DNA of 64,000 bases from Phreatobacter stygius. Its GTDB lineage: Bacteria; Pseudomonadota; Alphaproteobacteria; Rhizobiales; Phreatobacteraceae. The notes beneath the pieces were generated by a model. It saw nothing but the letters and a program-made list of their open reading frames with translations. It did no database searches and was not told the origin of the DNA. Position 1 is the first letter of the stretch, and each line of letters starts with the position of its first letter. The stretch lies in assembly GCF_005144885.1 (NCBI RefSeq), contig NZ_CP039690.1, positions 6,746,873 through 6,810,872 of the forward strand, given 5' to 3'. Positions 27,801-42,605 of this stretch are shown here, piece after piece. Position numbers and translations under genes: made by a program.

Positions 27801-27876
27801 GGTCCCCCGGCCCAAGTTCCGGTCGCGTTTCCGGCGCGCTGTCGCTGGCCGTCTGATCGCTGCGGACATGGCTCAC
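24814..27876 (-). CDS. soxA: Sarcosine oxidase alpha subunit
   Basis: Large subunit of heterotetrameric sarcosine oxidase. The enzyme oxidises sarcosine to glycine, passing the methyl group to tetrahydrofolate as 5,10-methylene-THF and making H2O2. The protein is 1020 aa. An N-terminal ferredoxin-like domain lies at about residues 40-120. An NAD-binding oxidoreductase domain (GGGPAGLAAAHAAADAGAD) spans about 170-560. A GcvT-type folate-binding domain fills residues 610 to the end. It starts at GTG 27876, which shares a GTGA overlap with the soxD stop. Confidence 0.96.
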   Translation of the reverse strand: MSHVRSDQTASDSAPETRPELGPGDQPFRLAGGHGLDRERRLSFTFDGRSFSGFAGDTLASALMANGVRRVGRSFKYHRPRGILSAGPEEPNAILRVGAGSRAEPNSRATVVELHQGLVAESQNRFPSLDFDLGAANSLIARFLPSGFYYKTFMGPQFAGQNRAWMIYERFIRAAAGMGKPVRHADPDVYEHRTVHCDVLVVGGGPAGLAAAHAAADAGADVIIVDERPALGGQLCFETYEIDGLPAPDFARRSAADLAGRPNVAILTRTTAFGFYDHGTVALAERVTDHLGAVAPASLPRQRRWQVKARRIVLAQGAIERPLVFADNDLPGVMQASAVRRYANQFAAAAGKQVLVATANDDGYRTALDLAAKDVRIALIADARPTPGPIADLARLADIRVVTGYVPTQAIGRGEVQGCAIAPTGGGKGWIVGCDAIAVSGGFTPSVHLHSQAGGKLIWRDDIGGFVPGLIGQAAVSAGAANGTFGLAAIVKEAAMAGADAAEACGFARRALPEWAVKEDDAAPAQPLWVVALPEGLKAKRFVDFQNDVTADDLGLAVRENYRSVEHVKRYTTLGMGTDQGKTSNLNGLAIVAEKRGTTIAEAGTTTFRPPYTPVTLGALVGAETGKHHAPVRRTPLDAWHRTHGAVMTSAGLWERPKTYIRPGETYREAWIRETLAVRSGVGLCDVSTLGKIDVQGPDAQVFLDRLYCNPMASLAIGKARYGLMLRDDGMVFDDGTVTRVGDTRFYLTTTTANAGKVLSHMEFLLATAWTDLKVQVASISDHFGQIAVAGPRSRAVLETAAGISLGDDVLPHLGTLALELAGHRCRLFRVSYSGERAYEVSVPWRATAEVWNRLMTAGSADGIVPYGLEAMGAMRIEKGHVAGAELDGRTTPADLGLGRMVSTKKAFVGKVLLGREGLRDPDRLKLVGLEPIDGATSIPAGANLVRDPAAPTPMPILGHVTSATHSPTLGRPIALALIKPSAVAEGKELFAAAPLLDLSIAVKVCDPVFVDAGGGRMHG

Positions 27877-28136
27877 GATGCGGCCTCCGGCAGCGGACCG
27901 GCAGCCGCGATGGCGTGGGTCACCAGGTCACGCTCGATCACCACGAAACCCCGGCAGCCGAGATTGTGCTGCCAGATCTCGCGCAACGGCCCGCGCTTGT
28001 TGTCGCGCAGGAAGACGTGGTCGAACCAGGCGGCCTCGGGCGCATCATCGGCCGGCCGCGTCTTGGAGGCGTCGCCCATGAAGGTGAATTCGGTATGGGT
28101 GCGTTCGCCGCAATAGGGGCAACGGATCGTCAGCAT
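27873..28136 (-). CDS. soxD: Sarcosine oxidase delta subunit
   Basis: Small zinc-binding subunit of sarcosine oxidase, 87 aa. The zinc ligands of the family are in place: Cys6 and Cys9 in CPYC, with His57 and Cys61 (IWQHNLGC), at the same spacing as known SoxD. It lies between soxB and soxA; the nine-base gap behind soxB and the GTGA overlap with soxA fit coupled translation. Confidence 0.95.
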   Translation of the reverse strand: MLTIRCPYCGERTHTEFTFMGDASKTRPADDAPEAAWFDHVFLRDNKRGPLREIWQHNLGCRGFVVIERDLVTHAIAAAGPLPEAAS

Positions 28137-28145
28137 GGCCTGGCC

Positions 28146-29399
28146 TTAGTGCGCATTCGGGGTTGGCCCCGCGCCTTTTTCGTCGATCGCATAACCGCGC
28201 TCGAACCGGTCGAGGGTGAAGGCCGCGTTCAACGGGTGCGGTTCGTCGCGGGCGATCATATGGGCGAAGACGAAGCCGGAGCCGGGCGTCGCCTTGAACC
28301 CGCCATAACACCAGCCGCCGTTCAGGTAGAGCCCGCCGACCGGCGTCTTGGAGATGATCGGCGAGCCGTCCATCGACATGTCCATGATGCCGCCCCAGTG
28401 GCGCAGCATGCGCAGCCGCGACAGCGAGGGGAACATCTGCAGCCCGCAGGACATCGCTTCCTCGATGATCGGCAGGTTGCCGCGCTGGGCGTAGGACGGA
28501 TAAAAATCGAGGTCGCCGCCCATCACCAGCTCGCCCTTGTCCGACTGGCTGACATAGAAGTGGCCGGCGCCGAAGGTGATCACCGTATCGATGAAGGGTT
28601 TCAGCGGTTCGCTGACGAAGGCCTGCAGCAGGTGGCTCTCGATCGGCATCCTCAGGCCCGCCATGGCGGCGACATGGCCGGTATGGCCGGCCACCGCGAT
28701 GCCGATCTTGGCCGCCCGGATGGTGCCGCGCGTGGTCTCGACGCCCTGGATCCGGCCGTTTTCGATCAGGAAGCCGGTCGCCTCGCAATTCTGGATGATA
28801 TCGACGCCGCGCTGCGAGGCGGCGCGGGCATAACCCCAGGCCACCGCGTCATGGCGTGCCGTGCCGCCGCGCCGCTGCATCAGGCCGCCGACAACGGGAA
28901 AGCGCGCTTCGTCCGAACAATCGAGCAGCGGCACCATGGCGGCGACCTGCTCGCGCGTCAGCCATTCCGAATCGATGCCGTTCAGGCGCATCGCATTGCC
29001 GCGGCGCATATGGGCGTCGCGCTGGCTGTCGGAATGGGCGAGATTGATGACGCCGCGCTGCGAGAACATGACATTGTAGTTGAGGTCGGCCGACAGCCCC
29101 TCCCACAGCTTCAGCGACAGTTCATAGAACTGCGCATTGGCTTCCAGCAGATAGTTCGACCGGATGATGGTGGTGTTCCGGCCGGTATTGCCGCCGCCGA
29201 TATAGCCCTTCTCGATCACCGCGACGCGGCCGATGCCATGTTCCTTGGCGAGATAATAGGCGGTCGCCAGCCCGTGGCCGCCGCCGCCGATGATGACGAC
29301 ATCGTAAGCACCCTGCGGCTCGGCATCGCGCCAGGCCTCTTCCCACCCGGAATGATTGCGCAGACCTTCGCGGAAGAGCCTGAGCGCGGAATAATTCAT
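28146..29399 (-). CDS. soxB: Sarcosine oxidase beta subunit
   Basis: Flavin subunit of sarcosine oxidase, where the N-methyl group is oxidised. The protein is 417 aa from ATG 29399 (MNYSALRLFREGLRNHSGWE). The FAD-binding GGGGHGLATAYYLAKEHG is near residue 40. GGNTGRNTTIIRSNYLL and the C-terminal GWCYGGFKATPGSG are typical of this subunit. It is first gene of soxBDAG and divergent from purU. Confidence 0.96.
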   Translation of the reverse strand: MNYSALRLFREGLRNHSGWEEAWRDAEPQGAYDVVIIGGGGHGLATAYYLAKEHGIGRVAVIEKGYIGGGNTGRNTTIIRSNYLLEANAQFYELSLKLWEGLSADLNYNVMFSQRGVINLAHSDSQRDAHMRRGNAMRLNGIDSEWLTREQVAAMVPLLDCSDEARFPVVGGLMQRRGGTARHDAVAWGYARAASQRGVDIIQNCEATGFLIENGRIQGVETTRGTIRAAKIGIAVAGHTGHVAAMAGLRMPIESHLLQAFVSEPLKPFIDTVITFGAGHFYVSQSDKGELVMGGDLDFYPSYAQRGNLPIIEEAMSCGLQMFPSLSRLRMLRHWGGIMDMSMDGSPIISKTPVGGLYLNGGWCYGGFKATPGSGFVFAHMIARDEPHPLNAAFTLDRFERGYAIDEKGAGPTPNAH

Positions 29400-29474
29400 C
29401 GTGCTGCCGTCATTGACCGTTCGAAAAGACCCGCCCCGTGCTGCAGCGCGGGACAAGGCGAACTCATCAGGTTC

Positions 29475-29504
29475 TTGGCGCCGAGGGAAGAGCCAGTTTT
29501 TAAT
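29475..29504 (+). promoter_or_regulatory. Possible purU promoter
   Basis: TTGGCG at 29475-29480 and TTTAAT at 29499-29504, 18 bases apart, lie in the soxB-purU gap. The leader would be about 95 bases. The -35 is reasonable and the -10 weak. Confidence 0.3.
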
Positions 29505-29605
29505 TGTCCCTCTGCCGGAAGAGCGGATCGGACCAGTTTGGGGTCGCCCGCCGTGCCGGCCTGTGCAAAAACGCCGGGCAAACCCCTCGTCCCGGGACTG
29601 CCGCA

Positions 29606-30484
29606 ATGACCGCCTCGACCGACCGCCCGGCGCTTCAGCCCGCCTTCGTCCTCACCCTGGTGTGCCGCGACCGCGTCGGCATCGTCGCGGCCGTCTCCCG
29701 CGCCATCGCCGACAAGGATTGCAACATCACCGAGAGCGCCCAGTTCGGCGATCCGGCGACCGGCATGCATTTCATGCGCCTGGTCTTCACCGCGCCGGCC
29801 GGGGTCAGCGCCGAAAGCTTCACGAAGGCCTTCGCGCCGGTCGCCGACCATTTCGCCATGACCTGGCGCCTGTGGGACGCCCATCAGCGGCCGCGCGTGG
29901 TGATCCTCGTCTCCAGGCACGATCACTGCCTGGTCGACCTCATCTATCGCTGGCGCCTCGGCAGCTTGCCGATGGACATCGTGTCGATCGTCTCGAACCA
30001 TGACGATGCCCGGGCGCTGGCCGATCAGCACGGCATCGCTTTCCACCACTTGCCGGTGACCCGCCAGACCAAAGCCAGCCAGGAGGCCGAGATCATCGAC
30101 CTGATCGGCCGGGACAAGGCCGACCTGGTCATTCTCGCCCGTTACATGCAGATCCTGTCGGACACGCTGACGGCCCGGCTCGCCGGCCAATGCATCAACA
30201 TCCACCATTCCTTCCTGCCGAGCTTCAAGGGCGCCGCGCCCTACAGCCAGGCCCATGCCCGCGGCGTGAAACTGATCGGCGCCACCGCCCATTACGTCAC
30301 CAGCGACCTGGACGAAGGGCCGATCATCGAGCAGGAAACCGAACGGGTGACCCACGCCATGAGCGTCGACGAATTCGTCGCCATCGGCCGCGAGATCGAA
30401 GCCCGCGTGCTCGCCCGCGCCGTCAAGATGCACGTCGAGCACCGGGTGTTCCAGAACGGCGGCAAGACGGTGGTGTTTCGCTGA
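29606..30484 (+). CDS. purU: Formyltetrahydrofolate deformylase
   Basis: Hydrolyses 10-formyl-THF to formate and THF, balancing the folate pool. The protein is 292 aa from ATG 29606. An N-terminal ACT regulatory domain (about residues 13-85, starting FVLTLVCRDRVGIVAAVSRA) is followed by a formyltransferase domain. The catalytic INIHHSFLPSFKGA block is at 198-210 and the Asp in SDLDEGPIIEQ near 236. Divergent placement from soxBDAG matches its role: it regenerates THF from one-carbon units that sarcosine oxidation supplies. Confidence 0.95.
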   Translation: MTASTDRPALQPAFVLTLVCRDRVGIVAAVSRAIADKDCNITESAQFGDPATGMHFMRLVFTAPAGVSAESFTKAFAPVADHFAMTWRLWDAHQRPRVVILVSRHDHCLVDLIYRWRLGSLPMDIVSIVSNHDDARALADQHGIAFHHLPVTRQTKASQEAEIIDLIGRDKADLVILARYMQILSDTLTARLAGQCINIHHSFLPSFKGAAPYSQAHARGVKLIGATAHYVTSDLDEGPIIEQETERVTHAMSVDEFVAIGREIEARVLARAVKMHVEHRVFQNGGKTVVFR

Positions 30485-31747: not shown

Positions 31748-32599
31748 TTAGCGCAGGAGCCGGAGCCGGGTGATCCGGCTCGGATTGCTCTCGGCCAGCA
31801 ACAGATCGCCATCAGGCGTGCCGAACAGGCCATGGGCGCCGTTCAGCACCGGGCGGGCGCGACCGAGCCTGACGCCGTCGGCACCGATCAGATGCAGGCT
31901 CGGCACCTGGTCGGTGATGTATGCGCGGCCTTGCGGATCGCCCCAGATCGCCACCGGGCGATAAAACCCCTCCCAGACGTCAAGCACATTGCCGTCGCGA
32001 TCGAACACCTGCACCCGGTCGCGGGTCCGGTCGATCACCACGACGCGGCCGTCGGCAAAGGTCCAGATGCCGTGCGGCTCGCCGAATTCGCCGGCCTCGA
32101 AGCCGAGCTGGCCCCAGGTGGCGAGCAATTGGCCATCGGCCGAGAAGCGGTGGACATGGTTGGCGGCATAGCCGTCGGCGACATAGATGTCGCCCCAGGG
32201 CGACACCGAGATATCGGTCGGATGGTTGAACGGCGACTGCGGAATGCCGCGCCCGCCGAGCTGGCCGAGCCGCTCGCCGCCGGCTGAGAACCAGATCACC
32301 TCGTGCATGTCGCGGTCGACCACGATGACCCGGCCATCGGCATCGGTGGTCAGCATGTGCCCGTCGGCGATCGTGTCGCCGCCCCAGCCGCCGAGATGGG
32401 CGCCATCGGGCGAAAGCTCGATGACCCGCGAATCATCCGGCTGCGTCAGGCTGTCATGGCGCAGCAGGACGAAGACATGGCCGCGCCCGTCGACCGCGAC
32501 ATCGGAAACGAAGCCGGAATTGGCCGGCCAGGTCCCGAACGGCCGTTCGACGCGGTAGCGGGCCTCGCCCAGGGCGACGATCAGGTCATGTGTGCTCAC
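31748..32599 (-). CDS. NHL beta-propeller protein related to peptidylamidoglycolate lyase (PAL)
   Basis: Protein of 283 aa with no signal peptide, so cytoplasmic, built of NHL-type propeller blades. It resembles the PAL domain of peptidylglycine amidating enzyme. HPTDISVSPWGDIYVADGY followed by an HVHRFS-type strand corresponds to the PAL QPTDVAV...YVSDGY region. His81 (DGHMLT), His176 (EPHGIW) and His256 (GAHGLF) match the order of the three PAL zinc ligands, and Tyr144 the active-site Tyr. Start GTG 32599 has an AGGA site eight bases upstream and lies five bases behind the puuE-like gene, so they are coupled. A role as an amidoglycolate or ureidoglycolate lyase is my inference. A structural or regulatory propeller is the alternative. 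Confidence 0.75.
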   Translation of the reverse strand: MSTHDLIVALGEARYRVERPFGTWPANSGFVSDVAVDGRGHVFVLLRHDSLTQPDDSRVIELSPDGAHLGGWGGDTIADGHMLTTDADGRVIVVDRDMHEVIWFSAGGERLGQLGGRGIPQSPFNHPTDISVSPWGDIYVADGYAANHVHRFSADGQLLATWGQLGFEAGEFGEPHGIWTFADGRVVVIDRTRDRVQVFDRDGNVLDVWEGFYRPVAIWGDPQGRAYITDQVPSLHLIGADGVRLGRARPVLNGAHGLFGTPDGDLLLAESNPSRITRLRLLR

Positions 32600-32604
32600 G
32601 GCGA

Positions 32605-33516
32605 TTATCCTGCAAAGGGATGGGTCTTCACCCAATGCTGCGCGATATCGAGGCGCCGTGTCACCCACACTCCGTCATGGCTCATCACATAGTCGAGGAA
32701 GCGGGCGAGGCCGGCGGCCCGGGCGGGATGGCCGATCAGCCGCATATGCAGGCCGACCGACATCATTTTGGGCTGGGTCCGGCCCTCGGCATAGAGCATG
32801 TCGAAGGCGTCCTTGTGCCATTCGAAATAGTCGGCCGCGGTGGCGAACTGGCCATTGCCGAACTTGCCGTCATTGTTGACCAGCGAATAGGGCACGACCA
32901 GCTGCGGCCTGCCGCCGACCCGCTTCCAATAGGGCAGCTCGTCGTCATAGGCGTCGGAATCGTAGAGGAAACCGCCCTCCTCCATCACCAGCCGGCGGGT
33001 GTTGACGCTCGGCCCGTAGCGGCAATACCAGCCGAGCGGCCGTTCGCCGACGGTCCGCTCGAGCGAGGCGACCGCCTTGGCGATGTGCTCGCGCTCCTCC
33101 GCCTCGCTGAGCAGATAGTGCTTCACCCAGCGCCAGCCGTGGCAGCAGACGTCGAAACCGGAGGCCTTGATGGCCGCCGCGGCCTCCGGATTGCGCTCGA
33201 TCGCCAGCGCGCAGCCGAACACGGTCAGCGGCAGACCACGCTCCTGGAACAGCCGCATCAGGCGCCAGAAGCCGACCCGGCTGCCATAAGCGAACATGCC
33301 TTCGCCCGCGAGGTCGCGGCCTTTCACGCCGGTATCGATGCCGTTGACCTCGGTCAGCCCGGTCTCGGTGAAGCCTTCGCCGTCCTGCACCGAGGGTTCC
33401 GAGCCCTCCTCGTAATTCATCACGAAATTGATCGCGATGCGCGCGCCGCCGGGCCATTTGGGATCCGGCGGATGGGCGCCGTAGCCGATCAGGTCGCGGT
33501 CATCAGCTGGTGTCAT
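32605..33516 (-). CDS. puuE: PuuE-type allantoinase / polysaccharide-deacetylase-fold ring hydrolase
   Basis: NodB-fold enzyme of 303 aa closely resembling PuuE, the metal-independent allantoinase that opens the hydantoin ring of allantoin. Family landmarks are RDLIGYGAHPPDPKWPGGAR, YEEGSE, AYGSRVGFWRL, GERPLGWY, NTRRLVMEEGGFLYDSDAYD and SVGLHMRLIGHPAR. The exact substrate could be another ureide or cyclic amide. Start ATG 33516 has a GGAG site eight bases upstream. It is first gene of a two-gene unit with the PAL-like protein and divergent from the amidase. Confidence 0.85.
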   Translation of the reverse strand: MTPADDRDLIGYGAHPPDPKWPGGARIAINFVMNYEEGSEPSVQDGEGFTETGLTEVNGIDTGVKGRDLAGEGMFAYGSRVGFWRLMRLFQERGLPLTVFGCALAIERNPEAAAAIKASGFDVCCHGWRWVKHYLLSEAEEREHIAKAVASLERTVGERPLGWYCRYGPSVNTRRLVMEEGGFLYDSDAYDDELPYWKRVGGRPQLVVPYSLVNNDGKFGNGQFATAADYFEWHKDAFDMLYAEGRTQPKMMSVGLHMRLIGHPARAAGLARFLDYVMSHDGVWVTRRLDIAQHWVKTHPFAG

Positions 33517-33857
33517 CAGGTCATCTCCGGGTCGGCTTTCGGTTGCGCCGCCGATCGGCCTGGTCAGGCCGGCCGGCCGATCCTCACATCGGAGCGTGAT
33601 TCCATCATCCCCCACGGGCGGAGGGGCAGCATGTCGGCGCGCGCATCGAGTGCGGCCGGGGGCACCGGGAGGTTGTCGACGAGATCAAGGCGAGCGACGA
33701 GCCAAGGGCCATGCCGGTTGCGCTCCGCCGTCCGCCGGCCATCATCCCGGCGCCATCATCCCGGCGCAGGAACAGGCCTGCCCGCGCGTCATGGCCCTTG
33801 CTTGACCGGGCGGCCCGCTGGCACGCTGCGATGCCGCCTGAGATCGATGGAGCTTGC
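33517..33857. other. Divergent intergenic region between puuE-like and amidase genes
   Basis: 341 bases without a credible gene. It must hold both promoters. One visible oddity is a 14-base direct repeat, CATCATCCCGGCGC, present twice at about 33739-33767. No clear -10/-35 pair or palindrome was found. Confidence 0.6.
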
Positions 33858-35255
33858 ATGCCCGCATCCGAACAGCCGTCTCCCGATCAACCCTGGCCGT
33901 CGATCATTGCGCTGGCCGATGCGGTCCGCTCAGGCCGTTCCACCGCGCGCGCCGAGACGGAACGGGCGATCGAGCGCATCGTCAGGCTCAATCCGGGGCT
34001 CAATGCCATCATTTCTTTCGATCCGGCCGATGCGCTCGCCCGCGCCGACGCGGTCGACCGCCGGGTTCAGGCCGGCGAAGAGCTGCCGCTCGCCGGCGTG
34101 CCGGTGACGATCAAGGACAATATCTGGGTGAAGGGCCGTCGGATCACCCAAGGCTCCAGGTTGTTCAAGGACTTCGTCGCGCCGCAAGACGCGGTGGCGG
34201 TGGAACGGCTGGAAGCCGCCGGCGCGGTCATTCTCGGCATATCCAACACGCCGGAATTCGCCGCCAAGGGCCAGACCACCAACCTGCTTTATGGCGCGAC
34301 CAGGCATCCGATGAACTCAGGCCTGACGCCCGGCGGCTCGTCCGGCGGGGCCGTCGCTTCCGTCGCCGGCGGGCTGGTGCCGCTGGCGCTCGGCACCGAT
34401 GCCGGCGGCTCCAGCCGGCGCCCGCCGGCCCATACCGGACTGGTCGGTTTCAAGCCGTCCTTCGGCGCCATTCCCTACGGGCCGGGCTTCGAGGAGCCGT
34501 TTTTCGGCGTGTCCTGCCATTGCCCGATCACCCGCACCGTGGCCGAAGCGGCGCTGGCCTTCGAGGTCATGGCCGGCCCCGATCCCCGCGACCCGCATTC
34601 GGCTTTCGTCGAACCGGGCGAGCCCGTCGACATCACCGCCCTGACGATTGCATACACGCCCAAATGGGGCCTCGACGTACCCGTCGAGCCCGAGGTCGCC
34701 GATGTCGTCGCGCGGGTCGCGGACATGCTGCGCGGCGCCGGATTGAACGTCGTGGCGCAGGATCCCGTCTGGCCGGCCGGCCTTGCCGAAGCCGGGCTCA
34801 ACCCGATCCAGCATGCCGGGCTCGCCGCCCTCCATGGCGCCGCCTGGCGACAGGCGCCTGACCTGATCGATCCGGATCTCGGTGCCCAGATCGCCGCGGG
34901 CTTCGACCTGTCCGGACCCGATGTCGGCCGCGCCATGCTGCTGTCCGAACAGGTTGCGCTGTCGGCCGCCCGCTTCTTCTCCGACCATCGCTTCGATGCC
35001 GCGATCGGCCCGACAACCCCTTGCACCGCCTGGCCCATCGACCAGCTCGGCCCCGATACCATTGCCGGCGTGAAGGTTGGCCCGCGCGGCCATGCGGTGT
35101 TCACGCCGCTGTTCAACCACGCCCGCCAGCCGGCGATTTCGGTGCCATGCGGCACCGACGCGAGCGGCCTGCCCATCGGCCTGCAGATCATCGCGCCGCG
35201 CCTCAAGGACCGGACGCTGCTCGCCATCGCCGCGGCCGTGGAGGCGCTGCTCTGA
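33858..35255 (+). CDS. Amidase signature family enzyme
   Basis: Amide hydrolase of 465 aa with the Ser-cisSer-Lys triad: Lys86 (TIKDN), Ser161 (GGSSGG) and the nucleophile Ser185 (DAGGSSR), at the spacing usual for the family. The substrate is not predictable from sequence. Allophanate hydrolases and other ureide-processing enzymes belong to this family, which fits the neighbours. ATG 33858 follows a GGAG site. It is followed 46 bases on by a racemase and divergent from the puuE-like gene. Confidence 0.9.
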   Translation: MPASEQPSPDQPWPSIIALADAVRSGRSTARAETERAIERIVRLNPGLNAIISFDPADALARADAVDRRVQAGEELPLAGVPVTIKDNIWVKGRRITQGSRLFKDFVAPQDAVAVERLEAAGAVILGISNTPEFAAKGQTTNLLYGATRHPMNSGLTPGGSSGGAVASVAGGLVPLALGTDAGGSSRRPPAHTGLVGFKPSFGAIPYGPGFEEPFFGVSCHCPITRTVAEAALAFEVMAGPDPRDPHSAFVEPGEPVDITALTIAYTPKWGLDVPVEPEVADVVARVADMLRGAGLNVVAQDPVWPAGLAEAGLNPIQHAGLAALHGAAWRQAPDLIDPDLGAQIAAGFDLSGPDVGRAMLLSEQVALSAARFFSDHRFDAAIGPTTPCTAWPIDQLGPDTIAGVKVGPRGHAVFTPLFNHARQPAISVPCGTDASGLPIGLQIIAPRLKDRTLLAIAAAVEALL

Positions 35256-35301
35256 GCCACGATCTGTTGCGTGCCTCCATACCCGCGCCGGCAGGCCGAC
35301 C

Positions 35302-35949
35302 ATGCATCTGCTCCTGATCAACCCGAACACCAGCCGGGCGACCACCGAGAGCATGGCCGGCATTGCCCGTAATGCCATGCCCGGCATCACCGTCGAATGC
35401 CTCACCGCGCCCTTCGGCGTGCCGCTGATCACCAATGCCACAGAACTCGCCTTGGCCGCGGAAGCGGTGGCCGCCGCGCTGGCGGCACCACGCACCGGCA
35501 TCGATGGCATCGTCATCGCGGCCTTCGGCGACCCGGCGCTGCAAAGCCTCAGGCAACGGCTGGCGGTCCCGGTCACCGGCATTGCCGAAGCCGGCATGGC
35601 CGAGGCGGGCCAGGACGGCCGCCGCTTCGCTGTCGTCACCACCACCCCGGACCTCGTCACCTCGATCGCGGGCCTCGCCGAGGGCTATGGCCATGGCGGA
35701 GCGTTTCTCGGCACCGTGCTCACCAAGGGCGACATTCGAACCGTGATGGCCGATCCGGACCGGCTCGCCGAAGCGCTCCTGGAGGCCAGTCGACGAGCCG
35801 TCCGCGAATTCGGCGCGGACGCCGTGGTCATTGGCGGCGGTCCGCTCGCCCTGGCAGCCCGACGGATCGGGCCCGACGTGCCGGTGCCGCTGATCGAGCC
35901 GGTGCCGGCGGCGGTCCGGCTCGCCGTGGCGCGCGCCGCGAAGACGTGA
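35302..35949 (+). CDS. Asp/Glu/hydantoin racemase family protein
   Basis: Protein of 215 aa of the family containing hydantoin racemase HyuE and allantoin racemase HpxA. The start INPNTSRATTESM is diagnostic, and the family's two cysteine positions deserve attention: the first region reads AAFGDPAL and the second VIGGGPLALAARR, so neither catalytic Cys is in its usual place. Activity is therefore uncertain, and a decarboxylase or a Cys-less variant is possible. It lies directly behind the amidase, probably in the same operon. Confidence 0.8.
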   Translation: MHLLLINPNTSRATTESMAGIARNAMPGITVECLTAPFGVPLITNATELALAAEAVAAALAAPRTGIDGIVIAAFGDPALQSLRQRLAVPVTGIAEAGMAEAGQDGRRFAVVTTTPDLVTSIAGLAEGYGHGGAFLGTVLTKGDIRTVMADPDRLAEALLEASRRAVREFGADAVVIGGGPLALAARRIGPDVPVPLIEPVPAAVRLAVARAAKT

Positions 35950-36285
35950 AGGTGCATTGCATTTGGGGGGCGTCCTTCCAGTTCTCGCACGAGAACCACC
36001 CTCACCTCGCCCCAGCGGGGCTACCGGATTGACACATCTGACGAGCGGCGGCGAAAACTGACGGGCCTTGCATCCTTCGAGACTCGTGCCGGAACCGCCC
36101 ACCTGACCTCGCCCCGGCGCCAGCCTCGATCTCACGGCGCTCATCGTCCTGGCCGGGCTTGTCCCGGCCATCCACGACTTGCTTAGGCCCAAAACATGCG
36201 TGGATGGCCGGGACAAGCCCGGCCAGGACGAAGTGCGAGGCTTGCGAGGTCAGGCCTGGGTCGGATCCGCGCGGCAAGCCCGTAT
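35950..36285. other. Intergenic region with long inverted repeat
   Basis: 336 bases between the convergent racemase and LysR genes, with no gene. It contains the 33-bp perfect inverted repeat described separately, and near 35995-36030 a partial CCACCCTCACCTCGCCCCAGCGGGG segment resembling half of the dispersed palindromic repeat. Confidence 0.6.
36144..36231. repeat. 33-bp perfect inverted repeat (hairpin)
   Basis: Arms 36144-36176 and 36199-36231 are exact reverse complements over 33 bases, with a 22-base loop. Each arm contains CCTGGCCGGGCTTGTCCCGG and a CCATCCACG end. The arm is itself partly self-complementary. It lies between convergent genes and could act as a bidirectional terminator; similar sequences are scattered in genomes of this order, as far as I know. 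Confidence 0.85.
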
Positions 36286-37206
36286 TCAATCGCGCCTGCT
36301 CAATCGCTCCCGGTAATCCCGCTCCATCCGCGCCGCGCCGGCGCGCACTTCCGCGAGGAAAGCCTGGGCCAACCGCGACAGCGGCCGGCTCTTCGACCAG
36401 GTCACCGAGGCGACCGCCCGGGTCACCGGTTCATAAGGCAGGACCACCAGCTCGTCGCCGGCGCCGTAGCGCGGTGAAAACGGATCGACGATGGCGACAC
36501 CGACGCCGCTTTCGGCCAGCACGCAGGCGGTGTTGCAATAGCGCACCTCGACCGCGTGCTTGAACGGCTGGCCGGCCTTGCGAAAGCTCTCGCGCACCGC
36601 TTCGCCGAGCCGGGTGCCGCGCTCCAGCGCAATGAACGGATAGCCGTCGAGGTCGGCCGGCGTGATCAGCGGCTTGTCGGCCAGGGGATGGCCGGGCTTG
36701 ACCACGCAGACCATGTCGCCGGTGAACACCGCCTCGCAATGCAGGCCGGGGCGGTCCTCCAGGCCAATGGCGAAACCGAGTTCGACCAGATTGCTCTCGA
36801 CACTGTCGATCACGCCCTCGTAGCGGCGGACGTCGAAGAACACCTGCACCTGCGGCCGCTGGGCCAGGAACTGGCGCAACGCCGAGGGGATCACGCCATA
36901 ACCGATCGGCGGGGTTGCGACGATGCGCAGATGGCCGGCCTTGCTCTCCTTCAGGTCGCGCAGCTTGTTCTCCAGGATCGTGTGCATGGTGAAGATCGAT
37001 TCCGCCTCGTCATGCAGCATCTGGGCTTCGCGGGTCGGGAACAGCCGGTTGTTGATCCGCTCGAACAGGGGAAAGCCGGTCTGTGCCTCCATCGCCTTGA
37101 TCGCATTGCTGATCGCCGGCTGCGACAGGCCGAGCTGGCTCGCCGCCGCGACCGTGGTCCGATAGCGGATGATCGCCCGCAAGATCTCCAGCTGGCGCAG
37201 CGTCAT
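36286..37206 (-). CDS. LysR family transcriptional regulator
   Basis: Protein of 306 aa: N-terminal winged HTH (MTLRQLEILRAIIRYRTTVAAASQLGLSQPAISNAIKAME) and a two-lobed effector-binding domain. Start ATG 37206 follows a GAGGAGG ribosome site; an ATG twelve codons upstream is less likely. It is divergent from the carbamoylase-transporter operon and most likely its activator. ATAG/CTAT half-sites lie between the genes. Confidence 0.92.
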   Translation of the reverse strand: MTLRQLEILRAIIRYRTTVAAASQLGLSQPAISNAIKAMEAQTGFPLFERINNRLFPTREAQMLHDEAESIFTMHTILENKLRDLKESKAGHLRIVATPPIGYGVIPSALRQFLAQRPQVQVFFDVRRYEGVIDSVESNLVELGFAIGLEDRPGLHCEAVFTGDMVCVVKPGHPLADKPLITPADLDGYPFIALERGTRLGEAVRESFRKAGQPFKHAVEVRYCNTACVLAESGVGVAIVDPFSPRYGAGDELVVLPYEPVTRAVASVTWSKSRPLSRLAQAFLAEVRAGAARMERDYRERLSRRD

Positions 37207-37219
37207 GGCGGCCTCCTCG

Positions 37220-37268
37220 CTATCATTCCACTGAATAGACATGGCCAAAATATCATAGTCCGGCCTAT
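37220..37268. promoter_or_regulatory. Candidate LysR binding region with ATAG/CTAT half-sites
   Basis: CTAT-N11-ATAG at 37220-37238 fits the T-N11-A LysR-box rule. A second near-palindrome, ATAG-N6-CTAT, lies at 37255-37268. Both fall in the lysR/carbamoylase divergent gap close to lysR, the usual place for an autoregulatory and activating LysR site. Confidence 0.4.
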
Positions 37269-37389
37269 TGTTGCACTGCCGTCGCGATGTCACAGTTTCG
37301 TCGTCCGGCGGGACTGCCCCGGGAGCCCCAGGCTTGGCCTGAAGCTCCTGAAACGCCCTGCCCTCATCGCTCAAGAGAAGGCCAAGACG

Positions 37390-38346
37390 ATGTCGCGCAG
37401 TCTTCGCGTCGCCGGTGCGCAAATGGGCCCGACCCAGCGCGATGACAGCCGGGCAAAGACCCTGGCGCGCCTGATCGCGCTGCTCGACGAGGCGGCAGCC
37501 AAGGGCGCCGGCCTGGTGGTGTTCCCGGAACTCGCCTTCACCACCTTCTTTCCGCGCTGGCTCCTGGAAGCCAATGAGCTCGCGAGCTATTTCGAGCCCG
37601 CCATGCCGAACCCGGCGGTGCAGCCGCTGTTCGACCGGGCCCGCGAGCTGAATATCGGCTTCTATGTCGGTTATGCCGAAAAGACCCCCGACGGCCACCA
37701 CTTCAACAGTTCGATCCTGGTCGGGCCGGACGGCGAAATCGTCTCCAAATACCGCAAGATCCACCTGCCCGGCTCGGTCGAGCCGCGCGCCGGTGAAAAG
37801 TACCAGCAGCTGGAAAAGCGCTATTTCGAATATGGCGATCTCGGCTTCCCGGCCGTGCGGGCGCCGGACGCCTGGGCCGGCGCCATTACCGGCATGTTGA
37901 TCTGCAACGACCGCCGCTGGCCGGAAGCTTGGCGCGTGCTCGGCCTGCAAGGCGCCGAACTGGTCTGTATCGGCTACAATTCCGCCGCCTATGATCCGAA
38001 CGGCGGCGACCGCGAGGACGCGGCGCTGCGCACCTTCCACGCCAAGCTCGCGGTCCAGTCCAACGCCTATATGAACGCCACCTGGGCGGTCGCCGTCGCC
38101 AAGGCCGGCGACGAGGACGGCGCCGGCCTGATCGGCGGCTCCTGCATTGTCGATCCGAACGGCGTCATCGTCGCCGAGGCGGCAACGCTGGCCGACGAGA
38201 TCATCATCGCCGATTGCGATTTCGATCTGTGCCGCCAGGGCAAGACCAAGATGTTCAATTTCGAGGCCCATCGGCGGCCGCAATGGTACGGCCCGATCAC
38301 CGGCCAGGTCGGCGTGGTCGAACCGGGCCGGGAGACTGCCGGTTAG
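37390..38346 (+). CDS. N-carbamoyl-D-amino acid hydrolase-like nitrilase-superfamily enzyme
   Basis: Carbon-nitrogen hydrolase of 318 aa closely resembling D-carbamoylase, which releases CO2 and NH3 from N-carbamoyl-D-amino acids, the last step of hydantoin use. The catalytic triad is Glu47 (VVFPELAFT), Lys123 (KYRKIHLPG) and Cys172 (LICNDRRWPE). LEKRYFEYGDLGFP and SCIVDPNGVIVAE are further D-carbamoylase landmarks. N-carbamoylputrescine or beta-ureidopropionate remain possible substrates. It is the first gene of the transporter operon and divergent from lysR. Confidence 0.88.
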   Translation: MSRSLRVAGAQMGPTQRDDSRAKTLARLIALLDEAAAKGAGLVVFPELAFTTFFPRWLLEANELASYFEPAMPNPAVQPLFDRARELNIGFYVGYAEKTPDGHHFNSSILVGPDGEIVSKYRKIHLPGSVEPRAGEKYQQLEKRYFEYGDLGFPAVRAPDAWAGAITGMLICNDRRWPEAWRVLGLQGAELVCIGYNSAAYDPNGGDREDAALRTFHAKLAVQSNAYMNATWAVAVAKAGDEDGAGLIGGSCIVDPNGVIVAEAATLADEIIIADCDFDLCRQGKTKMFNFEAHRRPQWYGPITGQVGVVEPGRETAG

Positions 38347-38401
38347 CCTCGACGCGTCACAGGGGCCGGTCGCCGGCCGCCGCATCTGGAGGGGAGTACA
38401 G

Positions 38402-39232
38402 ATGATCAGGCATGTTGTTGCAGGCGTCGCCGCGGCGGGCCTCTTGATCGCCGCGAGCGGCGGCCGGGCCGGCGAATTGCCGGCCCAGGTGAAACAGTCC
38501 GGCGTGATCCGCATTTCGGTCAACGCCATCTATCCGCCAATGGAATATCGCGACCCCGCCACCAACCGGCTGGTCGGGCTCGACATCGATCTCGGTGAAG
38601 CGCTCGCCGCCAAGCTCGGCGTCCGCATCGAATGGTCGGAGAGCGCCTTCGAGCAGCTCATTCCCGGACTGCAGACCGGCCGCGCCGATCTCATCCTGTC
38701 CGGCCTGAGCGATCTGCCGGCGCGCCGCGAGACCATGGATTTCATCGACTATCTGAAATCCGGCGCCCAGTTCTACACGCTCGCCGCCTCGCCGCTGGCG
38801 ACGCCTGAGGACGTCTGCGGCAAACGGGTCGGCACCAGCCGTTCGACCTCGTTCCCCGACCAGATCCGCCGCTGGAGCGCGGAAAACTGCGAGGCCAAGG
38901 GAAGGCCTGCCATCACGGTCGTGCCGGCCGAAAGCACCGCGGACGCCCGCGCCCAGCTGAAGCAGGGCCGCATCGACGCCGCCGTCCAGGGCAGCGAGAC
39001 CGTGCCCTATGCGATGTCGCTCGACCCTGGCGTGTTCAAGCCGATCGGCACGTCGTTCACGGTCAACTATCAGGGCATTGCCTTCCGGAAGGCCGATACG
39101 GCCTTTCGCGACGCCATCGCCGAGGCGCTTGTCGCCCTCATCAAGGATGGCACCTATCAGCAGATCCTGGCCAAATGGAACCTGCCTGGTAACGCGGTTG
39201 CCGGCCTGATCATGAATGGGGAAGCCCGATGA
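38402..39232 (+). CDS. ABC transporter substrate-binding protein, polar amino acid type (first)
   Basis: Periplasmic family 3 solute-binding protein of 276 aa. Residues 1 to about 27 form a signal peptide ending GGRAGELP. NAIYPPMEYRDPATNRLVGLD is the typical first lobe, and ADLILSGLSDLPARRETMDF the hinge region. ATG 38402 follows GGAGGGGAG. It overlaps the permease start by four bases (ATGA). It probably captures an amino-acid-like compound, here likely a ureide or carbamoyl amino acid. Confidence 0.93.
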   Translation: MIRHVVAGVAAAGLLIAASGGRAGELPAQVKQSGVIRISVNAIYPPMEYRDPATNRLVGLDIDLGEALAAKLGVRIEWSESAFEQLIPGLQTGRADLILSGLSDLPARRETMDFIDYLKSGAQFYTLAASPLATPEDVCGKRVGTSRSTSFPDQIRRWSAENCEAKGRPAITVVPAESTADARAQLKQGRIDAAVQGSETVPYAMSLDPGVFKPIGTSFTVNYQGIAFRKADTAFRDAIAEALVALIKDGTYQQILAKWNLPGNAVAGLIMNGEAR

Positions 39233-40104
39233 CGCTCGCATCACCGCAAAGCCTCGGCGTGTCCGCGACCAGCGACCCGTTTCCCGATATTGCCGGCTTG
39301 AAGATCATCCGGCGCACCCATTGGGGCCGCTGGCTGGCGGCGACCAGCATCATCGCGCTGCTCGGCTGGATCGGACTGGCCTTCGCCCGCGGCCAGATCG
39401 AATGGGTCTATGTCGGCCGCTTCCTGACCGTGCCGTCGATCCTGTCGGGCGTGGTCAACACCATCACCATGTCGGTGCTCGCCATGGCGCTCGGCATCCT
39501 GCTCGGCGTGGTCGTGGCGATCATGCGCATGTCGCCCAATCCGGTGCTGCGCTCGGTGGCGCTCGGTTATGCCTGGTTCTTTCGCGGCACGCCGGTCATC
39601 CTGCAATTGCTGCTCTGGTTCAATCTCGCCCTGATCTTCCCGACCATGGGCATTCCCGGCCTGTTCAGCGCCCGCACCGTCGACATCATGACGCCCTTCG
39701 TCGCGGCCCTGCTCGGGCTCGGCATCAACCAGGGCGCCTATACTTCGGAAGTCGTCCGCGCCGGCCTGATCTCGGTCGACCACGGCCAGTATGAGGCGGC
39801 CCAGTCGATCGGCATGACCCGGCTCCTGTCGCTGAAGCGGATCATCATTCCGCAGGCCATGCGGGTGGTCATCCCGCCGCTCGGCAACGAGTTCATCGGC
39901 ATGATCAAGCTGACCTCGCTCGCCAGCGTCATCCAGTTCTCCGAGGTGCTGCACAACGCCCAGAACATCTATTACGCCAATTCGCGCGTCATCGAGCTCT
40001 TGATCGTCGCCGCCATCTGGTACCTGGCCATCGTCTCGGTGCTGACGCCGCTGCAAATGCTGCTCGAGCGTTATTTCGCGCGCGGCGCGGCGAAGGGGCG
40101 CTGA
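39229..40104 (+). CDS. ABC transporter permease, polar amino acid (HisMQ) type
   Basis: Inner-membrane subunit of 291 aa with a longer cytoplasmic N-terminus and about five to six membrane helices. The EAA loop with [21 protein letters not shown], which docks to the ATPase, is intact. Only one permease gene is present, so it should act as a homodimer. Start ATGA overlaps the first binding protein; the ATPase follows two bases after its stop. Confidence 0.94.
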
Positions 40105-40106
40105 CC

Positions 40107-40874
40107 ATGACCGCTCCGCTCGTCTCCATTCGCTCGGTCGCCAAACATTTCGGCTCGTTCCGGGCGCTCAACGGGGTGTCGCTCGATGTCGACCAGGGCG
40201 AGGTGCTGTGCATCATCGGCGCCTCCGGCTCGGGCAAGACCACGCTCTTGCGCTGCATCAACCAGCTGGTCGAGATCGATGCCGGCGCCATCTGGGTCGA
40301 CGGCGACCTGGTCGGCTACCGCCGCGTCGACGACAAGCTCTATCCGCTGACGGAGGCTGAAATCGCCCGCCAGCGGCTGAAGACCGGCATGGTGTTCCAG
40401 CGCTTCAACCTGTTTCCGCATATGACCGCGCTGGAAAACATCATCGAGGGCCCGGTCCAGGTGCTGAAGCGCGACAAGGCCGAGGCGATCCGCGAGGCGC
40501 GCGCCCTGCTCGACCGGGTCGGCCTGGCAGCGAAAGCCGATGCCTTTCCGGCCAACCTGTCGGGCGGCCAGCAGCAGCGCGTCGCGATCGCCCGGGCGCT
40601 CGCCATGAAGCCGAAGCTGATGCTGTTCGACGAACCGACCTCGGCGCTCGATCCGGAACTGGTCGGCGAGGTACTGGCGGTCATGCAAGGGCTCGCCAAG
40701 ACCGGCATGACCATGATCGTGGTCACCCATGAGCTCGGTTTCGCCCGCGAAGTCGCCGACCGGGTGGTGTTCATGGACCATGGCGCCATTGTCGAACAGG
40801 GAACCGCAGCGGCAGTCCTGAACGCTCCGAAAGAAGAGCGCACGCGGGCCTTCCTGTCGGCGGTTCTGGCGTGA
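40107..40874 (+). CDS. ABC transporter ATP-binding protein, polar amino acid type
   Basis: GlnQ/HisP-like ATPase of 255 aa energising the uptake system. Walker A is GASGSGKTT, the ABC signature LSGGQQQR, Walker [13 protein letters not shown], and the switch His is in [13 protein letters not shown] slight insert ([20 protein letters not shown]) after the first beta region is typical of the HisP group. It sits between permease and second binding protein. Confidence 0.95.
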
Positions 40875-40903
40875 ATGTTGGATAAACGAAGAGGGGTTCC
40901 GAC

Positions 40904-41725
40904 ATGAAGAAACTGGCTTTTCTGACCTGCTTGCTCGGCCTGATCGGCCCGGCCCAGGCCGCCGAACTGCCCGCCGCCATCAAGGCGCGCGGCACGATCA
41001 TCGCGGCCATCGTGCCGAACTATCCGCCGCTCGACCTGAAGGATCCGGCGACCAGCGAATTGACCGGCTTCGATGTCGAGCTGGGCACCGCGATCGCCGC
41101 CAAGCTCGGCGTGCGGATCCAATGGCAGGAAACCAGCTTCGAGCAGATGGTCTCGGCGGTCGGCACCGGCCGGGTCGACGTGGTGATCTCGGGCATGAGC
41201 GACCTGCCGAGCCGGCGCGGCACGGCGAGCTTCGTCAATTATCTGCGCTCCGGCCCGCAATTTTTCGTCCGCGCCGCGCGGGCCGCCGAATTCCCCGACA
41301 TGCTGTCGCTGTGCGGCAAGACCGTCGGCGCCAGCCGCCGGACCTCCTATCCGCGCGAGATCGCGCGCTGGAGCGAGGAAACCTGCGCCGCGGCCGGCAA
41401 GCCGGCGATCAATTTCGTCGGCACCGAAGGGTCCGCCGATGCCCGCACGCAGCTGCGCCAGGGCCGCATCGACGCCGCCATGCAGGGCAACGAGACCCTG
41501 CCCTACATCATGGGCCTGGAACCCAATACCTATCACCCCGTCGGCACGCCGATCGCCACCCAGCTGATGGGTATCGCCACGGGCAAGGACGCGACCGAGC
41601 TGCAGCAGGCGATCGCCGGCGCGCTGACCGAACTTATCGCAGACGGGACCTATCGGCGGCTGCTCGACAAGTGGCAGCTGACCGCCAATGCCATCGAAAG
41701 GGTGACGATCAATGCCGGGCAATGA
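40904..41725 (+). CDS. ABC transporter substrate-binding protein, polar amino acid type (second)
   Basis: Family 3 binding protein of 273 aa with signal peptide MKKLAFLTCLLGLIGPAQA. It is clearly paralogous to the first binding protein: PNYPPLDLKDPATSELTGFD, SGMSDLPSRRGTASF and QGNETLPYIMGLEP line up with it. Two binding proteins on one permease/ATPase pair suggest two related ligands, or two enantiomers. It overlaps the next gene by 14 bases. Confidence 0.93.
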   Translation: MKKLAFLTCLLGLIGPAQAAELPAAIKARGTIIAAIVPNYPPLDLKDPATSELTGFDVELGTAIAAKLGVRIQWQETSFEQMVSAVGTGRVDVVISGMSDLPSRRGTASFVNYLRSGPQFFVRAARAAEFPDMLSLCGKTVGASRRTSYPREIARWSEETCAAAGKPAINFVGTEGSADARTQLRQGRIDAAMQGNETLPYIMGLEPNTYHPVGTPIATQLMGIATGKDATELQQAIAGALTELIADGTYRRLLDKWQLTANAIERVTINAGQ

Positions 41726-42605
41726 AAAATGGGACGTGATCCCGACCAGGCCAGCCAATATGGCACCGCCGGCGCCTGAATTCCCCTGGCCGGCCGGCCA
41801 TCGCGCGGCGATGTTCCTGTCCTTCGACGTCGACGCCGAAAGCGCCTGGACCTCGAAGGACCCGGCCCATGCCGAGCGTCTGGTCACCATGTCGTTCGGC
41901 GGCTTCGAGGCGCGTGTCGGTACGCCCAAGCTCCTCGAATTGCTCGACCAGCTCGGCTTGAAGGCAACCTTCTTCATCACCGGCTGGGCGGTCGACGCCC
42001 ATCCGGCCATGGCCGAAAATATCCTGAAGGCCGGCCACGAGATCGGCCATCACGGCTATCACCACCTGCTGCCGGATCCGGGCGATCCCTATATCCAGGA
42101 TGAGCTCGACCGCGGTTTCGAGACCCTGAAGCGCCGGCTCGGCGTGGTGCCGGTCGGCTATCGCGCGCCCTTCGGCGAAAGCTGCGACGAGCTGCGGATC
42201 AGCCTGAAGCAGCGCGGCATCCTCTATTCGTCGTCCTGGCGCGACGATGTCCGGCCCTACCGGCAGGTTCTGCCCGACGGCTCGCCCGGCGTGATCGAGC
42301 TGCCGCCGACCTCGAGTTATGACGACTGGATGCACGGCTTAAGCGCCCGCTTCTCGCCGCGCTCGGTGTTCCCCAAGGAACATGTCCTGTCGATGTGGAA
42401 GGACGAGCTCGACGAAGTCAGGGACTGGGGCGCCATGGTCACCACCGTGCTGCATCCCCAGGTCAGCGGCCGGCCGATGCGGCTGCGTCTGTTGCGCGAC
42501 TTCCTGACCTATGCCCAGGCGCACAAGGACGTCTGGATCACCACCGGCGCCGAGATCGCGGCGCATTACGCGGCCTGCGAAGCGGCGGCCGCCAAGGCGG
42601 CGTGA
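41712..42605 (+). CDS. Metal-type polysaccharide deacetylase (NodB) fold hydrolase, possible cyclic imide/hydantoin hydrolase
   Basis: NodB-homology protein of 297 aa without signal peptide, hence cytoplasmic, unlike cell-wall deacetylases. Metal-site motifs are DVD at residues 39-41 (with Asp41 followed by AES) and HHGYHH at 113-118; YRAPFGE at 150-156 is the third motif. It resembles the HpPgdA/imidase side of the family. Its place at the end of the carbamoylase-transporter operon suggests that it opens a cyclic amide or hydantoin taken up by the ABC system; that is inference. Start ATG 41712 overlaps the binding protein gene; ATG 41760 is the alternative. Confidence 0.8.
   Translation: MPGNEKWDVIPTRPANMAPPAPEFPWPAGHRAAMFLSFDVDAESAWTSKDPAHAERLVTMSFGGFEARVGTPKLLELLDQLGLKATFFITGWAVDAHPAMAENILKAGHEIGHHGYHHLLPDPGDPYIQDELDRGFETLKRRLGVVPVGYRAPFGESCDELRISLKQRGILYSSSWRDDVRPYRQVLPDGSPGVIELPPTSSYDDWMHGLSARFSPRSVFPKEHVLSMWKDELDEVRDWGAMVTTVLHPQVSGRPMRLRLLRDFLTYAQAHKDVWITTGAEIAAHYAACEAAAAKAA

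Follow-up and report, generated by a model that had tools for sequence, protein, structure and literature searches.

A conserved LysR-linked operon with carbamoylase-like and NodB-fold hydrolases, and an adjacent PuuE/PAL-like module, in Phreatobacter stygius

In a 64,000-nucleotide stretch of Phreatobacter stygius DNA (the window; G000:C1:6746873-6810872, within a single-contig genome of 7.35 Mb), we observed two adjacent gene sets, module A (36286-42605) and module B (31748-35949). With about even confidence, we read them as two catabolic modules with related chemistry, the substrates and reactions being predicted. Module A is a conserved LysR-linked uptake and hydrolysis operon present in several alphaproteobacterial families. 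It joins a carbamoylase-like enzyme and an ATP-binding cassette (ABC) importer to a metal-type hydrolase of the NodB fold, and there is circumstantial support for the latter being a ring opener that stands in for a hydantoinase. Module B holds a PuuE-like hydrolase next to a propeller resembling peptidyl-alpha-hydroxyglycine alpha-amidating lyase (PAL). Twelve genomes of the genus were compared.

Gene content of the two modules

The initial annotation, made without database searches, had listed eleven genes here, and each was borne out at its position by Pfam matches and open frames. They are given below with one further gene of the window.

31748-32599, minus strand: NHL propeller, PAL-like, module B (Pfam NHL)
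32605-33516, minus strand: PuuE-like NodB-fold hydrolase without the metal-binding Asp pair, PuuE1, module B (52% identity to PfPuuE 3cl6)
33858-35255, plus strand: amidase-signature hydrolase, module B (Pfam Amidase, E 3.3e-89)
35302-35949, plus strand: Asp/Glu/hydantoin-racemase homologue without both catalytic Cys, module B (Pfam Asp_Glu_race)
36286-37206, minus strand: LysR-type regulator, module A (Pfam HTH_1 and LysR_substrate)
37390-38346, plus strand: N-carbamoyl-D-amino-acid hydrolase-like CN_hydrolase of a distinct subfamily, module A (Pfam; PDB 8i99)
38402-39232, plus strand: polar-amino-acid-type binding protein 1, SBP1, module A (Pfam SBP_bac_3)
39229-40104, plus strand: ABC permease, module A (Pfam BPD_transp_1)
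40107-40874, plus strand: ABC ATPase, module A (Pfam ABC_tran)
40904-41725, plus strand: polar-amino-acid-type binding protein 2, SBP2, module A (Pfam SBP_bac_3)
41712-42605, plus strand: metal-type NodB-fold hydrolase, module A (Pfam Polysacc_deac_1)
62280-63674, minus strand: TRZ/ATZ-type amidohydrolase, likely a displaced partner of module A (Pfam Amidohydro_1)

Module A reads as one operon because of its tight spacing: the gaps are 55 bp (carbamoylase-SBP1), 2 bp (permease-ATPase) and 29 bp (ATPase-SBP2), and SBP1 overlaps the permease by 4 bp and SBP2 the NodB gene by 14 bp. The LysR gene is divergent from the carbamoylase gene, with 183 bp between the start codons, and presumably regulates the operon; a promoter and terminator scan of this gap found none. 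In module B, 5 bp separate the PuuE-like and NHL genes on the minus strand (a GTG start being assumed for NHL) and 46 bp the amidase and the racemase homologue on the plus strand. The GC content is even across the window (63-71%), so composition gives no sign of a foreign island. The initial annotation had also found no cyclic-amidohydrolase hydantoinase in the window, and this held: three reference proteins matched no dihydropyrimidinase-, dihydroorotase- or ErtD-type hydantoinase in it at E ≤ 1e-3.

Module A is conserved with its NodB gene

We searched genome contigs with the carbamoylase and obtained 322 related loci, the best 80 of which were kept for the locus counts; 47 of these 80 locus titles name Bradyrhizobium. 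Flanks of up to 10 kb were read, and matches covering less than 50% of the query were dropped. A locus was called NodB-positive when a same-strand NodB gene of at least 55% identity lay downstream of the carbamoylase, no more than 6 kb away. This was the case for 60 of the 80 closest carbamoylase loci, and some of the NodB-less loci are short contigs (e.g. L053 and L071). In 58 of the 60 NodB-positive loci the carbamoylase has a divergent LysR gene no more than 400 bp away, and the importer is similarly constant (binding protein 58/60, permease 58/60, ATPase 57/60). The set includes Bradyrhizobium, Methylobacterium, Lichenibacterium, Acetobacter, Gluconobacter and Acidisoma. The co-occurrence of carbamoylase, ABC and NodB-fold genes that had been expected across genomes was thus confirmed. 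Conservation of the neighbourhood stood for module A with its divergent LysR gene, but not for module B, which is rarely alongside.

A second count used 249 genomes of the order, a subset of a larger group, each at least 90% complete. No more than 9 or 10 candidates were scored in any genome, and a NodB place had to reach E ≤ 1e-80. Of 101 carbamoylase places, 11 show at least 71% identity (the module A subfamily) and 90 show 48-59%. A NodB place lies within 5 kb at 8 of the 11 subfamily places, compared to 1 of the 90 other places within 10 kb (Fisher 7e-9, relatedness ignored). Viral contigs scanned with the carbamoylase yielded no relatives.

The arrangement varies in some loci. In L120 (4318-10102) a polyamine-type importer lies between carbamoylase and NodB in place of the amino-acid type, and in L062 the two genes are adjacent with no importer between them; hence carbamoylase and NodB can stay paired while the importer changes. 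A Terrarubrum plasmid has the order LysR, carbamoylase, SBP, permease, ATPase, SBP, SBP, NodB, racemase, dihydroorotase-like gene and amidohydrolase, which indicates that NodB can coexist with a cyclic amidohydrolase.

The NodB-fold enzyme and the binding proteins of module A

The NodB-fold enzyme matches the PDB structures 3rxz (E 2.7e-51), 3qbu (HpPgdA; 1.3e-21) and 3cl6 (PuuE; 2.4e-19). The nearest solved relative, 3rxz, is named merely 'Polysaccharide deacetylase'. D39, D41, H114 and H118 are invariant in alignments of 33 (A1) and 25 (A2) sequences; the enzyme would be of the metal type, with the Asp and two His ligand residues kept and metal binding predicted. No secretion signal was seen by eye at its N-terminus, and the enzyme is apparently cytoplasmic.

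Ring openers of the NodB fold have precedents in PuuE and in the cyclic imidase HxnM. In the accessible part of the HxnM report, HxnM is proposed as a cyclic imidase with HxnN as the amide hydrolase acting next, a 64% match is given between HxnM and the imidase of P. putida YZ-26, and cyclic imidases are described as relatives of HpPgdA (PMC9304392). These relations would equally suit a scheme in which module A degrades cyclic imides, the NodB enzyme opening them to half-amides that the CN-hydrolase then cleaves as a half-amidase, a scheme that the altered active site of the carbamoylase (see below) also favours. We consider it unlikely, however, as the D-carbamoylase triad and Arg175/Arg176 are kept, and as ureide rings are what the hydantoin-racemase, dihydroorotase-like and TRZ/ATZ partners suggest.

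The Pfam name Polysacc_deac_1 raises another alternative, that the enzyme is an ordinary carbohydrate or peptidoglycan-fragment deacetylase whose place in the operon reflects salvage of cell-wall D-amino acids. The D-amino-acid transaminase neighbours at 6 of the 60 loci would fit it, as would the description of HpPgdA, in the available text, as a peptidoglycan deacetylase on crude peptidoglycan extract (PMC3084791). The missing secretion signal and the carbamoylase and racemase partners do not agree with such a role, and active-site access is described there as reduced or obstructed in PuuE and HpPgdA (PMC3084791), so that we hold it very improbable.

Two further loci, L125 (a Chelatococcus plasmid) and L124 (Sinorhizobium meliloti), have NodB homologues of 63% and 52%, respectively, with an amino-acid-type importer and an MmgE/PrpD gene. 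L125 also has an argininosuccinate-lyase-family gene, and no carbamoylase was seen in either locus; this is another partner set for the NodB fold.

SBP1 and SBP2 share 50.6% identity. Both keep the Arg that we take to bind the carboxylate, and have Gly at the equivalent of Asp161, which presumably contacts the alpha-ammonium group in E. coli ArgT, HisJ, GlnH, ArtJ and ArtI. Gly occupies this column in all 112 aligned stretches of at least 50% identity and in 127 of all 138, stretches of less than 75% coverage having been dropped. Downstream of NodB, L064, L075, L055, L054, L056, L059, L044 and L123 have a third binding protein in which the Asp is retained; it may bind a free amino acid.

Partner genes, and alternation of NodB with hydantoinase-type genes

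Partner genes were counted within 12 kb in the 60 NodB-positive loci, the identity of each family being judged on one representative. A TRZ/ATZ-type amidohydrolase is present in 57 loci, a family-5 binding protein in 42, a hydantoin-racemase homologue (f8) in 40 and a D-amino-acid transaminase in 6. The TRZ/ATZ families (f7, f29 and f36) match the corresponding models below cut-off, and the transaminase representative (f30) lies over its subfamily cut-off (355.8 vs 320). The structures nearest to f8 in the PDB are hydantoin and allantoin racemases, and both Cys are present in 34 of 35 family rows.

As hydantoinases we counted f21, f23 and the dihydropyrimidinase-type references; f28, an amidohydrolase/deacetylase family of 7 loci, was left out. 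The dihydroorotase-like f21 representative is over the PRK09060 cut-off (677.1 vs 482), and the ErtD-like f23 representative is below that of ErtD (500.7 bits vs 600). None of these genes was seen in the flanks of 50 of the 60 NodB-positive loci. Among the 20 NodB-less loci, 9 carry f23, 9 a further carbamoylase and 5 carry f8. Thus, f23 occurs in 9/20 NodB-less versus 0/60 NodB-positive loci (Fisher 7e-7, relatedness ignored), and outside Bradyrhizobium in 9/19 versus 0/14 (Fisher 0.004, with the same reservation). This mutual exclusion suggests a possibly shared role for f23 and NodB. The role of NodB as hydantoinase, which the initial annotation had proposed, has circumstantial support in the restriction of f23 to NodB-less loci and in the alternation of PuuE and D-hydantoinase beside the lyase (see below).

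Seven NodB-less loci (L049, L061, L084, L092, L109, L114 and L117) combine the ErtD-like hydantoinase with two carbamoylases; all of them except L117 have citrate-synthase-like and MmgE/PrpD-like neighbours, as judged by eye.

In the congeners G001, G002, G004, G005 and G008, the TRZ/ATZ gene directly follows NodB and a binding protein. The window gene at 62280-63674, about 20 kb from NodB, is the sole match in its genome (E ≤ 1e-50) to the TRZ/ATZ gene of G002, with 79% identity, and is likely the displaced last gene of module A. A TctC-type tricarboxylate receptor gene (61149-62126) adjoins it. An f21 orthologue serving the window was considered and rejected: the f21-like genes of the genome (E ≤ 1e-60) are 49% and 39% identical and located elsewhere.

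Module B: PuuE1, amidase and racemase homologue

PuuE1 is related to PfPuuE 3cl6, with motif 1 reading FVMNYEEG in place of FDVDAE, so that the Asp pair of NodB motif 1 is lost as in the PuuE allantoinases (3cl6, 1z7a). It differs from them in lying under the TIGR03212 cut-off (403.8 vs 424.6 bits), apart from the canonical PuuE-UraD fusion, and in its tie to a PAL-like lyase. That fusion (542 bits) is at G000:C1:3947291, with a transthyretin/HIUase-family gene beside it. The earlier assignment as a PuuE-type allantoinase therefore holds for the relationship but not for PuuE1 as the allantoinase of the genome, a role that we rejected; PuuE1 is a second paralogue.

PuuE1 (at least 87% identity) is present in 10 of the 12 genus genomes. 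The PAL-like gene directly follows it in all 8 of these 10 that were also searched for that gene, the window's included, and the two are also adjacent in G071, of another family. In congeners, module B genes form two operons with their own importers: ATPase-SBP-permease-permease-PuuE1-PAL-like, and amidase-SBP-ATPase-permease-permease-PuuE2, the latter sometimes continued by PuuE3 and the racemase homologue. These are side by side in G006 and G001, and apart or reordered in G002, G003 and G010. A DNA alignment with G006 showed two gaps in the window: 3.9 kb are absent from the PuuE1-amidase interval, and 6.5 kb from the next one, up to the racemase homologue. The two importers and the genes for PuuE2 and PuuE3 are missing with them. 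As G001 has the full set, their loss in the window appears to be the simpler reading.

The amidase has the Lys, Gly-Gly-Ser-Ser and second Ser motifs, which we take to be those of amidases by role. In the racemase homologue, the columns of the two Cys that we presume to be catalytic in hydantoin and allantoin racemases are Ala and Gly, and no Cys is found there in 8 of 8 module B homologues. A homologue of the racemase is therefore present as had been annotated, but we rejected hydantoin racemisation by it, as it has no Cys at either column.

The PAL-like propeller pairs with two kinds of ring opener

The NHL propeller is matched by the PAL structure 3fvz (E 1e-12). All 13 bacterial sequences aligned, the window's among them, retain the equivalents of rat PAL His585, Tyr654, His690, Arg706 and His786; we take the three His to be Zn ligands and Tyr654 and Arg706 to be catalytic. 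Arg533, presumably also a PAL residue, is outside the aligned rat segment; close to where it would be expected, all the sequences have an Arg, which in the window protein is part of an LLRHD motif. The PAL-like protein differs from PAL in being bacterial and single-domain, and in standing in operons with hydantoin-type ring openers and importers.

We found 20 PAL-like places in 14 genomes of the order. Nine adjoin a PuuE-type gene, and a tenth (G212) is one gene away from one. In G001, G009, G010, G011 and G025 a D-hydantoinase that exceeds the TIGR02033 cut-off shares an operon with the PAL-like gene or is its immediate neighbour, which brings the places with either ring opener to 15 of 20. 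G001, G009, G010 and G011 have a parallel operon, D-hydantoinase-SBP-ATPase-permease-permease-PAL-like. The same type of lyase is thus found with ring openers of two unrelated folds. Transthyretin/HIUase-family genes were also seen beside PAL-like operons in G001 and G071 (L165:9156-9539 and L211:11469-11831).

Links between the modules, and neighbouring genes

The two modules are adjacent in the window and in G006. In G002 and G004, an importer/PuuE2 cluster lies just past the TRZ/ATZ gene of module A; the amidase is included in G002, and the contig of G004 ends before its position. L062 has an SBP-ATPase-permease-permease-PuuE2 cluster after carbamoylase-NodB, and at the PAL locus of G071 a Cys-less racemase homologue is accompanied by an importer of the polar-amino-acid type and a TRZ/ATZ gene (32%). 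The repeated adjacency in varied orders speaks for related substrates of the two modules.

The initial annotation went further and proposed one linear route, in which the racemase homologue, the PuuE-like enzyme, NodB and the carbamoylase serve one hydantoin/allantoin pathway with one importer. The adjacency of all genes in the window and in G006 (where there are two extra importers and two more PuuE paralogues) would agree with it, and the clusters abutting module A in G002 and G004 and carbamoylase-NodB in L062 make a functional link possible. However, module B is not seen in the flanks of most of the 60 NodB-positive loci: within about 10 kb, PuuE was found in 2, the PAL-like gene in 0 (that of G006 lying beyond the flank), the amidase in 1 and the Cys-less racemase in 1, which marks module B as separate. 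Module B also has its own importers in congeners, and its racemase homologue is without both catalytic Cys. The single route was thus not borne out, and we hold it to be quite unlikely.

Upstream of module B lies a gene set for one-carbon amine catabolism (24814-30484), which could take N-methyl amino acids:

24814-27876: Sarcosine-oxidase alpha
27873-28136: SoxD
28146-29606: DAO-type oxidoreductase
29504-30484: formyl-transferase/ACT protein

Observations that weigh against the two-module reading with NodB as ring opener

Several observations count against this reading. At 10 of the 60 NodB-positive loci, ring opening could really be the work of the cyclic amidohydrolase present there (f21 at 9 loci, a dihydropyrimidinase-type hydantoinase at the other), and the exclusion of f23 and NodB is uncorrected for phylogeny, the NodB-positive and NodB-less sets differing in lineage. 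At 3.42 Mb, the window genome itself encodes a D-hydantoinase (559.1 bits, over cut-off) next to a two-Cys racemase. A second one is at 1.22 Mb (537.7 bits), and three more carbamoylases are at 1.21, 3.54 and 5.58 Mb, so that standard hydantoin chemistry is available in trans; the gene at 3.42 Mb speaks against the single route originally proposed. From these data one could argue that ring opening falls to a cyclic amidohydrolase or the TRZ/ATZ enzyme and that NodB does another step, such as removal of an N-acyl or N-formyl group. We give this a low probability, since no f21, f23 or dihydropyrimidinase-type gene accompanies the great majority of NodB genes in these loci. TRZ/ATZ enzymes, moreover, are typically deaminases or dechlorinases.

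The operon is also not kept everywhere. G111 (L218) has LysR, carbamoylase, importer, hydantoin-racemase homologue and TRZ/ATZ gene without NodB; the subfamily place of G181 (L217) has LysR, carbamoylase and one SBP, again without NodB; in G175 (L216) the carbamoylase stands alone, with LysR, importer and NodB absent; and G003 (L035) has importer and NodB with no carbamoylase.

The carbamoylase was earlier called a D-carbamoylase homologue. Its closest PDB structure is indeed the D-carbamoylase 8i99 (E 3.5e-103), and the Glu47-Lys127-Cys172 triad with Arg175/Arg176 is invariant in 86/86 cluster and 12/12 canonical-like sequences. The His144 position, however, is Gln in all 86 cluster sequences, as opposed to His in 8i99 and the 12 canonical-like ones, and other fixed or nearly fixed differences are at positions 50, 129, 198-200, 202, 225, 228, 287 and 288. 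In the part of the report available, His144 is one of six residues around Cys172 (PMC11151596). These differences define a changed-site subfamily whose substrate should not be assumed, and it may be other than an N-carbamoyl-D-amino acid.

Further points concern the relatives and the importer. HpPgdA binds metal but was, in the accessible text, inactive on the compounds tried, allantoin included, the earlier crude-extract test having given peptidoglycan deacetylase activity (PMC3084791). TRIM-type NHL propellers without lyase activity outscore PAL in the PDB search with the propeller, and no ring opener was recognised at 5 of the 20 PAL-like places (G056, G074, G105, G006:C39 and G000:5628579). 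Asp stands at the aligned column in just 11 of the 21 other SBP_bac_3 frames of the genome, the remaining 10 being without it; we therefore do not read the Asp-to-Gly change as a strong sign that the ligands lack a free alpha-amino group, and counted it as weak evidence. Overall, the interpretation of the initial annotation was partly supported, and part of what would refute it was also observed.

Discussion

The reactions that we propose are predictions from gene content and catalytic residues. In module A, the amino-acid-type ABC importer would take up a small cyclic ureide of the hydantoin type, or the N-carbamoyl product. The metal-type NodB enzyme would open the ring in the cytoplasm, and the carbamoylase-like Cys hydrolase would then strip the carbamoyl group to give CO2, ammonia and an amino acid. 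In relatives, the TRZ/ATZ amidohydrolase probably acts upstream on the ring, and the two-Cys racemase and D-amino-acid transaminase may adjust and use the product. In module B, the PuuE-type enzyme would act on a different ring of the hydantoin or imide type, opening it to an alpha-hydroxyglycine with an N-acyl or N-carbamoyl group; the PAL-like zinc propeller would cleave this N-acyl-alpha-hydroxyglycine-type product to an amide or urea and glyoxylate, and the amidase may then hydrolyse the amide.

A joint reading of the two modules, a route of which the literature searched gave no description, is offered tentatively. An imported alpha-hydroxylated hydantoin or imide (e.g. 5-hydroxyhydantoin) would be opened by the metal-free PuuE-type enzyme or by a D-hydantoinase, and the resulting ureidoglycolate-type acid would be cut by the bacterial relative of PAL, the lyase that amidates peptide hormones, to glyoxylate and urea or an amide, with the metal-type NodB of the second module acting as the hydantoinase of the carbamoylase operon.

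Module A resembles the hyu clusters (hydantoin racemase, D-hydantoinase, D-carbamoylase), of which a Bradyrhizobium hyuC-racemase-hyuH set is described in the available part of one report (PMC3546935), in its carbamoylase homologue, its importer and the two-Cys racemase homologue of relatives. It differs from them in that the window has no dihydropyrimidinase-type hydantoinase, the NodB-fold hydrolase is the usual partner, and the carbamoylase has the Gln substitution. With the HxnM/YZ-26 imidase/HpPgdA group it shares the NodB fold, the metal-ligand residues, the relation to 3qbu and the sequence of an opener followed by an amide hydrolase, as far as the accessible text goes (PMC9304392); the partner here, however, is a carbamoylase homologue, NodB is nearer to 3rxz than to 3qbu, and HxnM and the imidase are compared through their published descriptions. 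ErtD, the hydantoin-5-propionate amidohydrolase of ergothioneine utilisation, belongs to the family of f23 in the NodB-less carbamoylase loci; it has the amidohydrolase fold, f23 is below the family cut-off, and the window has no such gene.

The closest grouping is the nitrogen-responsive region HVO_A0293-A0306 of Haloferax volcanii, where, in the part of the report available, the NodB-like HVO_A0301 is co-induced with a potABD-type importer, the carbamoylase-type amaB2 and the dihydropyrimidinase dpyS (PMC6801745). That region is archaeal and was proposed for uracil-derived compounds, the role of the NodB-like protein being unassigned there (PMC6801745). It lends weight to the theme, and makes the gene association itself less novel. 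Among the matches listed in the literature searched, which covered few subscription journals, we found no description of either module and no co-mention of 'N-carbamoyl-D-amino acid hydrolase' and 'polysaccharide deacetylase'.

If the proposal is true, the 'polysaccharide deacetylase' family in databases holds misnamed small-molecule ring hydrolases, and an operon of rhizobia, methylobacteria and acetic acid bacteria gains a testable function. D-amino acids are made industrially with hydantoinases and carbamoylases as biocatalysts, and a carbamoylase with a changed site and an unrelated partner would be of practical interest. The pairing of a ring opener with the PAL-like propeller would assign a reaction to the bacterial NHL group, and would represent a new branch of ureide nitrogen recycling.

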